A DNA stretch of 64,000 nucleotides from NCBI GenBank assembly GCA_030430205.1, contig JAUIGE010000001.1:248001-312000 (forward strand). Reading direction: 5' to 3'. Shown in pieces: positions 44,931-50,408 of the stretch (within the stretch, counting starts at the first letter, position 1; the number at the start of each line of letters is the position of its first letter). A program made the position numbers and the translations under genes. This DNA comes from Bacteroidia bacterium. GTDB lineage: Bacteria; Bacteroidota; Bacteroidia; J057. The notes under the pieces are model-generated. The model did not search any database, was not told where the DNA came from, and worked only from the letters and a program-made list of their open reading frames with translations.

Positions 44931-45530
44931 ATGAAACTCATACTTGCTGATATACACGAACCCCTTACCCTGGCATGGACAAAATTTTTCTCCGAATGCG
45001 GGAACGTTAGCGTGCATCATGGGTCCATTTTTGAATTAGATTGCGATGCCATTGTAAGTCCGGCCAATTCGTTTGGATTTATGGATGGAGGGCTTGATCT
45101 ATTGATTTCCAGGTATTTGGGATGGCATGTACAGGAAAGGCTTCAGGAAATAATCAAAACAAAATATCATGGCGAACTATTAGTCGGGCAGGCAGAAATT
45201 GTTGAGACAAGCCATGAAAAAATCCCTTATCTGATATCAGCACCCACTATGCGGGTTCCTAAGAAAATCATAAAAACTGTCAATGCTTTTCTCGCTACAC
45301 GGGCAATTCTTTTATTGGTGAAATATGGAAAAATGCCCGATGGGAAGGCCATTTCAGACATTGTCCAAACCATCGCCATTCCTGGCCTGGGAACTGGCGT
45401 AGGTGAGCTTCCTCCTTCTATCTGCGCAAGGCAGATGCGGATGGCTTATGATGAAATTGTATTGGGCAAATATGCATTTCCAAATTCCTGGCGCGAGGCT
45501 CAGGCAGGGCATGTGTTTTTGGGAGGATAG
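44931..45530 (+). CDS. Macro-domain protein
   Basis: 199 residues. Macro domains bind ADP-ribose and may remove it from proteins or nucleic acids. Visible: the first strand [16 protein letters not shown], then [18 protein letters not shown] (about 42-59) with the Asn and the Gly-rich loop that cup the ribose, and [20 protein letters not shown] (about 151-170) as the second glycine loop. No extra domains. It is divergent from guaA by 35 bases. It could act on ADP-ribosylated products or process ADP-ribose 1-phosphate; no toxin is adjacent. Confidence 0.85.
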
Positions 45531-48371: not shown

Positions 48372-50408
48372 TCAAATTTCGCCCTCTTCAAATTCATTCA
48401 ATTGAGCCAGGACGCGATCTTTGAAGCGAAAATATGCTTTGGGTTCGATAAAATCTTCCGTTTTTACCCACGCTTCCACGCTGTATTTCTTGACAAATTT
48501 ACCGATGGTCGCCTTATCCATACTGGAATGTTCTGTCAGGTAGGCCGCCATGCGCAGCATCAGTTGTTTGTTGCGTTTGAGGATATCCTCAGCTGTAGAC
48601 AATCCCTCACGGATAAGCCTGAGTGCAGCTTTTTCGTATTTCGGTTTATGAAAAAAGGCTTCGTTGTAGTCGTTATCCGCGGCGCGGATATAGATGGGGT
48701 CATCGCCCATGGCGTAGTATTTTACGGCTTCGATGGCCAACTCAGAGGCATCTTCGATGTCCTGGCTGACGCCGGTAGAAGTCTCCTCATCTCCGAAGAT
48801 GAGGCGCTCGGCGGCGTAGCCGCCCAGGCTGATAGCGATCTCCTTGCGAAGCAATTCCTTGGTCATCATGCCGCGAGGCATGCGCACCTGGCAAAAGCCA
48901 TGGGAAGTGCTGTCTGCCGTGCGGGTAACGATTTTTTCGGGCAGTATGCGCGTTGTAAGTGCTGCCAGTATGGCATGGCCGGATTCATGAACGGCTGTAT
49001 AGGCCTGGCGGTCGTCGTTTTTGGATTTGCGTAGCAAATTGACCCGGAGCTTTACCGGATAACTCACCAGCTCCTGGCTGCGGTTCCACTCATCTATATA
49101 GGTGAAGACGTACTTTTCATCCTCATAGTCCCAAATCAGCTTTTTCACCTTCAACTCTTTTTCCAAAATTTCACATACAACCCGGCTGACATTTGACTCT
49201 ATCTGGTTGCTGATCGTGGTCAAAAGGGGCCGCGCACCCTGAGTTGGAAAAACTCCTTCCTCATAGATAAGCTGTTTTACCGCTTCTGAAAATTCGAAAA
49301 CGAGGCCAAATTTCTTTTGGACAAAAGTATTGATCCGCTTGAGTTGCATCCCAATCAACTGGCGGTAGCCTTCAGATGTAAAAGCTGAATAAATCAGGTG
49401 ATTGTTGCCCAAACGGGCGATTTGTTCATTGCGAAAGCGCTTTTGCAGCGCTTTTTTGATATGCCCGATTTTGATTTTGAGGGTGTCTTTATAAAATTCA
49501 TCAGCACTGATGTCAGGATTGATGTTTTTACTCATGTAAAAAGCTTCGTCCAGGTTACCCACAACAAAGACGAGGCTTCGGGAGAGGTCCATCAATTTGA
49601 GGGAGCCTTCCTGAAAGATGGATTCCAATACAAATCCGGAGAGCTCTTCCAGTGTCATGGCTTTGATGGCATTTATCAAATCCGCACGCGTAGCAAAGCG
49701 ATCCGAAGTCAGGGCAAAAAGCCCCCCTGTAAAGTTATCAGATACCAGAAAATTGGCCTTGGCTTTGCCTTTCCCTTTATCCCAATAAGAAAAAGTAAAG
49801 CCTTTGAAGATATCCTGAAAAGCATCCAGGCCATTCACCACTTTGCCATTTTCGATGGCTACTCCTGCCATGATGCATTGGTTGAGCAGTTCGTAGGCTC
49901 GGTAGCCCATTTTGATATAATGCTGGCTGGGCAGACCATTGTAGAAAAACTTCCCTGAATCGAGCAGATCCCAGATGATCCGCAATTTGTCCTGCTCGAT
50001 CTCTCCTCCCGTCTCATTGAGGCTTTTGGCAAATTGAAATTCATCCAGGCAAAGGATCACTTCTTTTTCATGAAAATGTGTCAAATCTTCATAAATAATG
50101 CTTTTTAAGCCATATTCTGCCTTGCTCCCAAACTCCCCCATATCAAAATGCAGATACGACTTTTCAAATGACAAGAGCTCCACGAGTCGGTGTACCAAAG
50201 CCGTTTTGCCAGTACCTGTCATGCCCCAAAGGTTGATCACGGTGGGGCGCATTTGAGCTTCGGGAAAAAGATACCAGGGCGAAATCAGGGTGATGATTTC
50301 ACTGATGATGCTATCCAGTCCGACAAATTCCAATTTCAAACTTTCGGCTGTATGCTCCAATACAGCTTTTCTGCTGAGAATCTGTTGTTTTAAGTTTTGG
50401 TTATTCAT
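48372..50408 (-). CDS. Soluble ATP-dependent protease: Clp-type AAA+ module fused to FtsH-type M41 zinc peptidase
   Basis: 678 residues from the ATG at 50408 (MNNQNLKQQ); earlier in-frame starts add a leader without support. Walker A GMTGTGKT at 62-69, then a FDMGEFGS strand, and Walker B EVILCLDEFQ. The small AAA subdomain has the Clp/Hsp100 signature GVFPTQGARPL (about 390-400) followed by ISNQIESNVSR, as in the second ring of ClpA/ClpB rather than FtsH. The C-terminal part is an M41 peptidase: HESGH at 474-478 and SQDIEDASELA with the downstream acidic ligand. No membrane segments are present, unlike FtsH. The combination suggests a self-contained cytoplasmic protease. The hydrolase gene lies just downstream. 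Confidence 0.85.
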   Translation of the reverse strand: MNNQNLKQQILSRKAVLEHTAESLKLEFVGLDSIISEIITLISPWYLFPEAQMRPTVINLWGMTGTGKTALVHRLVELLSFEKSYLHFDMGEFGSKAEYGLKSIIYEDLTHFHEKEVILCLDEFQFAKSLNETGGEIEQDKLRIIWDLLDSGKFFYNGLPSQHYIKMGYRAYELLNQCIMAGVAIENGKVVNGLDAFQDIFKGFTFSYWDKGKGKAKANFLVSDNFTGGLFALTSDRFATRADLINAIKAMTLEELSGFVLESIFQEGSLKLMDLSRSLVFVVGNLDEAFYMSKNINPDISADEFYKDTLKIKIGHIKKALQKRFRNEQIARLGNNHLIYSAFTSEGYRQLIGMQLKRINTFVQKKFGLVFEFSEAVKQLIYEEGVFPTQGARPLLTTISNQIESNVSRVVCEILEKELKVKKLIWDYEDEKYVFTYIDEWNRSQELVSYPVKLRVNLLRKSKNDDRQAYTAVHESGHAILAALTTRILPEKIVTRTADSTSHGFCQVRMPRGMMTKELLRKEIAISLGGYAAERLIFGDEETSTGVSQDIEDASELAIEAVKYYAMGDDPIYIRAADNDYNEAFFHKPKYEKAALRLIREGLSTAEDILKRNKQLMLRMAAYLTEHSSMDKATIGKFVKKYSVEAWVKTEDFIEPKAYFRFKDRVLAQLNEFEEGEI

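Follow-up and report, generated by a model that had tools for sequence, protein, structure and literature searches.

The window examined here, a 64,000-nucleotide stretch of a Bacteroidia bacterium genome (contig JAUIGE010000001.1), carries on its minus strand a gene for a 678-aa protein in which an AAA+ ATPase and an M41 zinc peptidase share one chain. The open reading frame was confirmed and runs from an ATG at position 50408 to a stop codon at 48372 (Table 1). It begins 173 bp after ispD and ends 12 bp before a gene for an alpha/beta hydrolase on the same strand. At 0.463, its G+C content is typical of the window (z -0.75). A prophage origin is unsupported: ten neighbors were scanned, and the eight that have Pfam matches resemble chromosomal genes (prolyl oligopeptidase, GMP synthase, IspD, aldo/keto reductase, and others). 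Two genes past the alpha/beta hydrolase gene, and beside the prolyl oligopeptidase gene, is a macro-domain gene (44931-45530, plus strand; Pfam 2.4e-12). Macro domains can process the products of KptA-type RNA repair (PMC7824862).

The original prediction held that this single open reading frame combines a Clp-type AAA+ ring with an FtsH-type peptidase, and this is borne out by Pfam matches, by diagnostic motifs, and by full-length relatives. The two quoted motifs, GVFPTQGARPL and HESGH, are both present in the translation. The large AAA subdomain yields weak Pfam matches only (AAA_14 at 8.7e-5; AAA/PF00004 at 0.022, with 15.7 bits vs. a cut-off of 21.2). Likewise, the whole protein scores far under the NCBIfam cut-offs for both FtsH (TIGR01241; 59 vs. 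600 bits) and ClpB (43 vs. 1232 bits). Among solved chains, none matches both halves by sequence, and the best stretches listed are either the peptidase of FtsH or YME1 or the D2 end of Clp proteins.

Table 1. Coordinates of the AAA+/M41 gene and its parts within the window
Feature	Position	Strand	Remarks
AAA+/M41 protein gene	48372..50408	-	678 aa; ATG start; stop codon included; alignments of relatives begin in the same N-terminal region
Walker A GMTGTGKT, residues 62-69	50202..50225	-	K68 in 136/137 members; the 137th is truncated there
Walker B strand ending D122, E123 (then Q125)	50040..50057	-	D122 in 137/137; E123 in 136/137
Family-specific insert, residues 158-268	49605..49937	-	Between short strands 153-157 and 270-274 (AlphaFold2 model)
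Sensor-1 motif GNLDE, residues 284-288	49545..49559	-	N285 and D287 in 137/137
Putative Arg finger R332 in FRNEQIARLGN	49413..49415	-	137/137; matches FRPEFLNR of Clp; phmmer alignment to ClpB
ClpB_D2-small, residues 346-411	49176..49373	-	Pfam PF10431, 9.7e-9, over cut-off
GARP sensor 2 (R393), inside ClpB_D2-small	49227-49238	-	R393 in 137/137
M41 zinc peptidase domain, residues 466-635	48504..49013	-	Pfam PF01434, 5.9e-20, over cut-off; hhalign to FtsH 99.8%
Zinc site HESGH, residues 474-478	48975..48989	-	H474, E475, H478 in 137/137
D550, putative third zinc ligand	48759..48761	-	137/137; aligned to the Asp of YME1

The claim that the protein is soluble holds as well. No membrane segment was found in it (its Kyte-Doolittle means over 19 residues peak at 1.45), and 32 additional in-frame codons upstream of the ATG contribute nothing above that value. 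A membrane-anchored FtsH that had been misread through the choice of start codon is ruled out by the lack of a hydrophobic segment in those codons. An artifact of gene fusion or assembly is also ruled out, because many independent contigs carry full-length relatives with the same domain order. A search for such relatives in other Bacteroidota had been proposed as a check, and they were found in many genomes.

Two halves with different kin

The AAA portion is most readily compared with the second ATPase domain (D2) of Hsp100 proteins. By hhalign, it matches the Hsp100 proteins encoded by its own genome at 98.0% (E 1.6e-13) across their D2, and it matches FtsH at 70% (E 4e-5) in the Walker region only. 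In a tree of 49 AAA cores, the family stands beside Hsp100 D2 (support 94/94) and FtsH lies elsewhere. Grouping of the AAA part with FtsH had been named as the outcome that would count against the original prediction, and a sister relationship to Hsp100 D2 was recovered instead. Forcing the family and FtsH into a single clade costs 14.4 log units and is not rejected by the AU test (p-AU 0.123), which leaves the tree alone not decisive.

Structure prediction points the same way. The AlphaFold2 model of the window protein has a pLDDT of 92.3 and a pTM of 0.84, and its residues 1-450 align with the D2 domains of Skd3, ClpC, ClpB, and ClpA (Z 23-25 and rmsd 2.6-3.6 for the top rows); the best matches are to Skd3, ClpC, and ClpB, at a Z of about 24 and within a range of 22-25. 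Chains of FtsH align to the model across both halves with a Z of about 22 and an rmsd near 7, as expected for proteins that share a domain order but have a different motor. The same two groups, the Clp D2 type and FtsH, were returned by Foldseek. The structure alignment comprised 102 of the 137 members, at <72% mutual identity; it excluded loci from the genome searches as well as five members that were incomplete or of odd length. Overall, the AAA part groups with the D2 domains of ClpB and ClpC in the profile-profile comparison, the tree, and the fold searches alike. The label "Clp-type" thus stands on profile and predicted fold; it had originally rested on the small subdomain alone, and the large subdomain proves to be divergent and to carry an insert. 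As a separate observation, the window's genome has three Hsp100-type ATPase genes close together (G000:C5:103500-116500, L202-L204).

The insert ranges from 75 to 172 aa among the 137 members and has the lowest mean conservation in the protein. Judging from the alignment, it would interrupt the hairpin that precedes sensor 1 in Clp D2 and, by analogy with Clp proteins, it presumably lies near the pore. Clp proteins that feed ClpP carry a docking loop with the tripeptide [LIV]-G-[FL]. No such tripeptide is conserved in the family, and the best column reaches 37% of the 137 members, at an N-terminal VGL motif. The aromatic pore-loop residue that is typical of unfoldases has no fixed place, and 18 of the 137 members have no aromatic residue at positions 90-104.

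The M41 portion has other relatives. It aligns with FtsH by hhalign at 99.8% (E 2.3e-28), and in a tree of 68 rows the family and FtsH form the two sides of one branch, with the family set apart from 32 FtsH M41 domains. This split indicates that the peptidase was not recently captured from the FtsH of the same genome, whose gene is the second M41 gene of that genome, is ordinary, and is located on another contig. Domain exchange, as originally proposed, is well supported by a Clp-D2-like AAA part (hhalign, tree, and fold) joined to an FtsH-like M41 part.

Residues expected to serve ATP hydrolysis and peptide cleavage are strongly preserved. K68, D122, E123, N285, R332, R393, H474, E475, H478, and D550 are kept wherever they are covered in 137 distinct proteins, with a single exception (E123D), and E534 is likewise present in all 137, bacterial and viral alike. 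These proteins derive from 85 bacterial and 66 viral loci after removal of two ordinary FtsH rows (L003, L014), three duplicates of genes from other loci (L032, L038, L078), and one broken copy (L037). Conservation of this extent rules out a degenerate peptidase. Judged by their residues, the ATPase and the peptidase are both intact on a single subunit, and the family is therefore predicted to carry out ATP-dependent proteolysis.

A patchy family in bacteria and very large phages

The distribution of full-length copies is very patchy. A search of 59 relatives yielded a single other copy, and a search of 394 further genomes from the phylum yielded five (E <= 1e-15), with one of these five broken, and no family member was found in the only genome of the same genus that was searched. 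In a broken copy (L037, G434:C77), the AAA and M41 parts are in different frames. A scan of genome_contigs returned 280 relatives, and the best 80 of these are nearly all titled Bacteroidota, along with a few Chlorobi or Ignavibacteria and two "Deltaproteobacteria" metagenome-assembled genomes (MAGs). The bacterial locus counts given below rest on these best 80 of 280 relatives together with the loci from the genome searches.

Viral contigs contributed 66 family loci. Twenty-two of the contigs are at least 200 kb long, and the largest reaches 548 kb. Of 36 viral records that were tested for a terminase gene, 16 carry one on the same contig, 11 of them over 200 kb, and so at least those records represent very large phages. 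By tblastn, the full protein is absent from 50,697 deposited phage records: P0001 gave matches to its M41 part in four records only, and a phage-type member gave none. The FtsH-like protein of jumbo phage MIJ3 (PMC6892783) was not picked up as a family member in that search. Among plasmids, 27 records were matched, none of them covering 80% of the query.

Two loci straddle the bacterial and viral sets. One is a 5-kb contig from a "Deltaproteobacteria" MAG (L071) that has four neighbor families in common with viral contigs L119-L122; it probably derives from a phage and was assigned to the MAG by binning. The other (L036/L038, G319:C66) is the only member from a bacterial genome that falls inside the phage clade, and might also be a phage contig; it is preceded by a gene for a multi-pass membrane protein and followed by one for a protein that, by eye, resembles phage tail collars.

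Gene contexts of the family

Many bacterial members reside near genes for RNA repair or for WYL-type regulators. The RNA ligase RtcB is encoded in 21 of 85 bacterial loci and the release factor PrfH in 14. Dysgonomonas macrotermitis and Ohtaekwangia koreensis are examples of hosts in which rtcB adjoins the protease gene. In 11 loci, prfH immediately precedes the protease gene and has the same orientation; the two genes are -74 to 163 bp apart, and the distance is at most 10 bp in 8 of these 11 loci. KptA is encoded in six loci, in four of which it follows the protease at a distance of 1-2 bp, and RNA ligases of the RnlB/RnlC clusters are found in seven. A WYL regulator is present in 47 of the 85 loci and occupies the -1 position in 20. 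Also, a WYL gene lies within two genes in four of the five other full-length loci from the searches of relative and phylum genomes. These family names were confirmed with Pfam or NCBIfam for one representative of each neighbor family, and PrfH passes its curated cut-off. A gene of the DUF2779 family is near the protease in 9 of the 85 loci, and in three of them (L073, L074, L082) it comes immediately after the protease gene, at a distance of 50-87 bp.

The associations are concentrated close to the protease. When positions within three genes were compared with those 4-14 genes away, PrfH was counted 14 vs. 0 times, KptA 6 vs. 0, RtcB 19 vs. 7, and WYL 38 vs. 11, in a comparison that treats related loci as independent and whose p-values are for this reason too small. 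In the family tree, an RNA-repair context is found in 16 of 28 rows of the window's own clade and again in 7 of 10 rows of a separate clade from Dysgonomonas and Tannerella. Sixty-two of the 85 bacterial loci have no RNA-repair enzyme within six genes. Viewed from the other side, PrfH is encoded in 27 of 395 Bacteroidota genomes, with RtcB at 26 of those 27 loci, and the protease was found within about 1.5 kb of PrfH at none of the 27. The protease is thus an optional extra, present in a minority of rtcB-prfH operons.

The viral loci present a different set of neighbors. An RNA-repair context was recognized for 10 of 52 distinct viral members, mostly through Thg1 and RNA ligases, and a WYL gene was found beside none of the 66 viral loci. 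In eight of them (L129-L134, L155, L166), the -1 position is taken by a conserved 456-aa protein (phrog_2087) with an N-terminal hydrophobic stretch, which might be a partner. Another phage neighbor had been read as a peptidyl-tRNA hydrolase (PTH2) from a motif seen by eye; Pfam and NCBIfam returned nothing for it and PHROGs only the term "hydrolase," and this reading was dropped.

Around the window copy, no gene for RNA repair or for a WYL protein was found among the genes of the window. RtcB and a WYL protein are each encoded once in its genome, on contigs other than this one, and a search for PrfH gave nothing above the cut-off. The only rtcB gene of this genome (L187:6934-8900, contig C78) begins 17 bp after a gene that appears by eye to encode an HNH endonuclease, and not after prfH. 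Since the window copy stands apart from RNA-repair genes, the role proposed for it rests on its relatives.

A proposed function and its alternatives

An AAA+ protease subunit of this make-up should form a hexamer, unfold protein, and feed the polypeptide into a peptidase chamber. On balance, we slightly favor the view that the family is a self-contained, cytosolic, ATP-dependent zinc protease that serves as the proteolytic arm of systems for RNA damage and ribosome rescue and of WYL-regulated stress systems. Six copies would probably assemble into a ring, and the motor of the Clp/Hsp100-D2 type would pull proteins through its pore into a chamber lined by M41 domains of the same chains. With the peptidase on the same chains, neither a ClpP partner nor a membrane would be needed. 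The family would act in stress systems that are set off by attack on RNA and translation, with a coupling to RNA repair that is suggested by gene order. Where rtcB and prfH lie upstream, the ligase would re-seal cut RNA and the release factor would free the jammed ribosome, sometimes with kptA placed after the protease gene. In other settings a WYL-type regulator adjoins the gene, and in giant phages RNA ligases and Thg1 are encoded nearby. The likeliest task would be to clear the protein side of the damage, which might be the freed unfinished chain, a damaged factor bound to the ribosome, or the attacking RNase.

Published work on the neighboring genes offers some hints regarding a more specific role. 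RtcB2-PrfH is reported to protect E. coli from colicin E3, which cuts the ribosome (PMC9223846). Furthermore, release by RFH, unlike that by tmRNA, would leave a product that is untagged for proteases (PMC1586002), and so a protease encoded in the same operon could fill this gap. We therefore offer, tentatively and as a scheme that could well be wrong, a tag-free proteolytic branch of ribosome rescue. An RNase toxin would jam the ribosome, PrfH would free the chain, RtcB (with KptA or other ligases) would mend the RNA, and the Clp-M41 ring would destroy the chain or the toxin. Giant phages might have taken up the ring to sustain translation against host defenses that cut RNA. If this scheme is true, one soluble protein does the job of tmRNA tagging plus ClpXP.

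The diversity of settings also invites a plainer explanation, that the ring is a general, stand-alone protease for cytosolic quality control, a housekeeper like Lon or ClpXP whose neighbors are incidental and dependent on lineage. The window copy is an orphan in its position, and the 85 bacterial members differ in context (RNA repair for 23, WYL for 41, and other for 21), as would suit such a protein. Its model has no dedicated substrate-binding N domain, with the AAA core starting after two helices. We nevertheless consider this explanation unlikely. Housekeepers tend to be less patchy than a family with one full-length copy among 59 relatives, five (one of them broken) among 394 phylum genomes, and none found in the genome of the same genus, and the adjacent placement of PrfH and KptA with operon-like gaps also argues against it.

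About equally improbable, in our estimation, is a part in anti-phage defense, in which a WYL-regulated ring would kill or arrest the cell by proteolysis upon sensing a phage, with the phage copies acting as counter-measures. The frequency of WYL genes (47 of 85 loci, 20 at -1) is consistent with this possibility, and WYL regulators are reported to co-localize with defense systems (PMC9122601). Among 122 scanned neighbors (of 130 listed, from 40 WYL loci) there are seven PDDEXK_4, two DUF2779, one McrBC, and one YhcG, and four of six members gave a weak PADLOC match to DolB of the Dodola system (best 1.9e-9). However, no known defense system was recognized as a partner in a scan that was not aimed at DolA, and WYL genes are rarely close in the RtcB-PrfH loci. 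Moreover, the neighbors found in phages are repair enzymes, with WYL at none of 66 viral loci. Finally, an inactive remnant or pure unfoldase, whose peptidase half is structural and whose ring only remodels its clients, is brought to mind by plant FtsHi proteins, which are reported to be inactive M41 relatives and whose motor complex is among the fold matches of the model, and is very improbable given H474, E475, H478, E534, and D550 in all 137 distinct bacterial and viral members.

Comparison with known systems

Several published systems resemble parts of the proposed protease or of its surroundings. In two bacterial clades, the protease gene of family members is immediately preceded by the same two genes that form the RtcB2-PrfH ribosome-repair operon. 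The RFH-RtcB operon has been portrayed as a counter-conflict operon with a TPR protein, a Pol-beta NTase, and two charged proteins as accessories, a list that names no AAA protease (PMC6514570); the family protease was found at none of the 27 PrfH loci sampled from Bacteroidota. A description of RNA repair in jumbo phages does not name such a protease either (PMC7824862). The FtsH ternary conflict systems are different, with FtsH-type AAA domains alongside vWA-MoxR (PMC7159879). Neither a Clp-D2/M41 fusion nor a protease encoded in an rtcB-prfH operon was found described in titles, the beginnings of abstracts, and text passages; a prior mention is possible, most likely in a 2016 review of RNA repair.

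DolB of Dodola is, like the family, a ClpB-like AAA protein, and its PADLOC model weakly matches the N-terminal AAA region (P0001, E 0.0025). However, this model of 375 positions gave no match anywhere in the peptidase half of P0001. The Hsp100/Clp proteins (D2 of ClpB and ClpC, and Skd3, the mitochondrial CLPB) share with the family D2-type large and small AAA subdomains, the GARP sensor 2, and an Arg finger in an FRxE-R context. The family differs from them in that it has only one AAA module, lacks both a Clp N domain and a conserved tripeptide for ClpP docking, and possesses its own fused peptidase and an insert of 75-172 aa before sensor 1. FtsH and the i-AAA and m-AAA proteases (MEROPS M41) share the M41 peptidase, marked by HExGH and an Asp further downstream and placed C-terminally on a subunit of an AAA+ ring; unlike theirs, the AAA part of the family is Clp-D2-like rather than classic AAA, and the family has no transmembrane segment.

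The family can be regarded as an AAA+ protease that pairs motor and peptidase in a new way and whose gene surroundings hint at its job. The usual pairings among compartmental AAA+ proteases are Clp motors with ClpP, HslU with HslV, Lon with its own peptidase, and FtsH with M41 at the membrane. A soluble Clp-D2 motor joined to an FtsH peptidase, conserved in Bacteroidota and in viral contigs of very large size, extends this list by one, and suggests that M41 needs neither its own type of motor nor a membrane in order to work. The association with rtcB-prfH, kptA, thg1, and RNA ligases further leads to a testable proposal, that of a protease dedicated to RNA repair.
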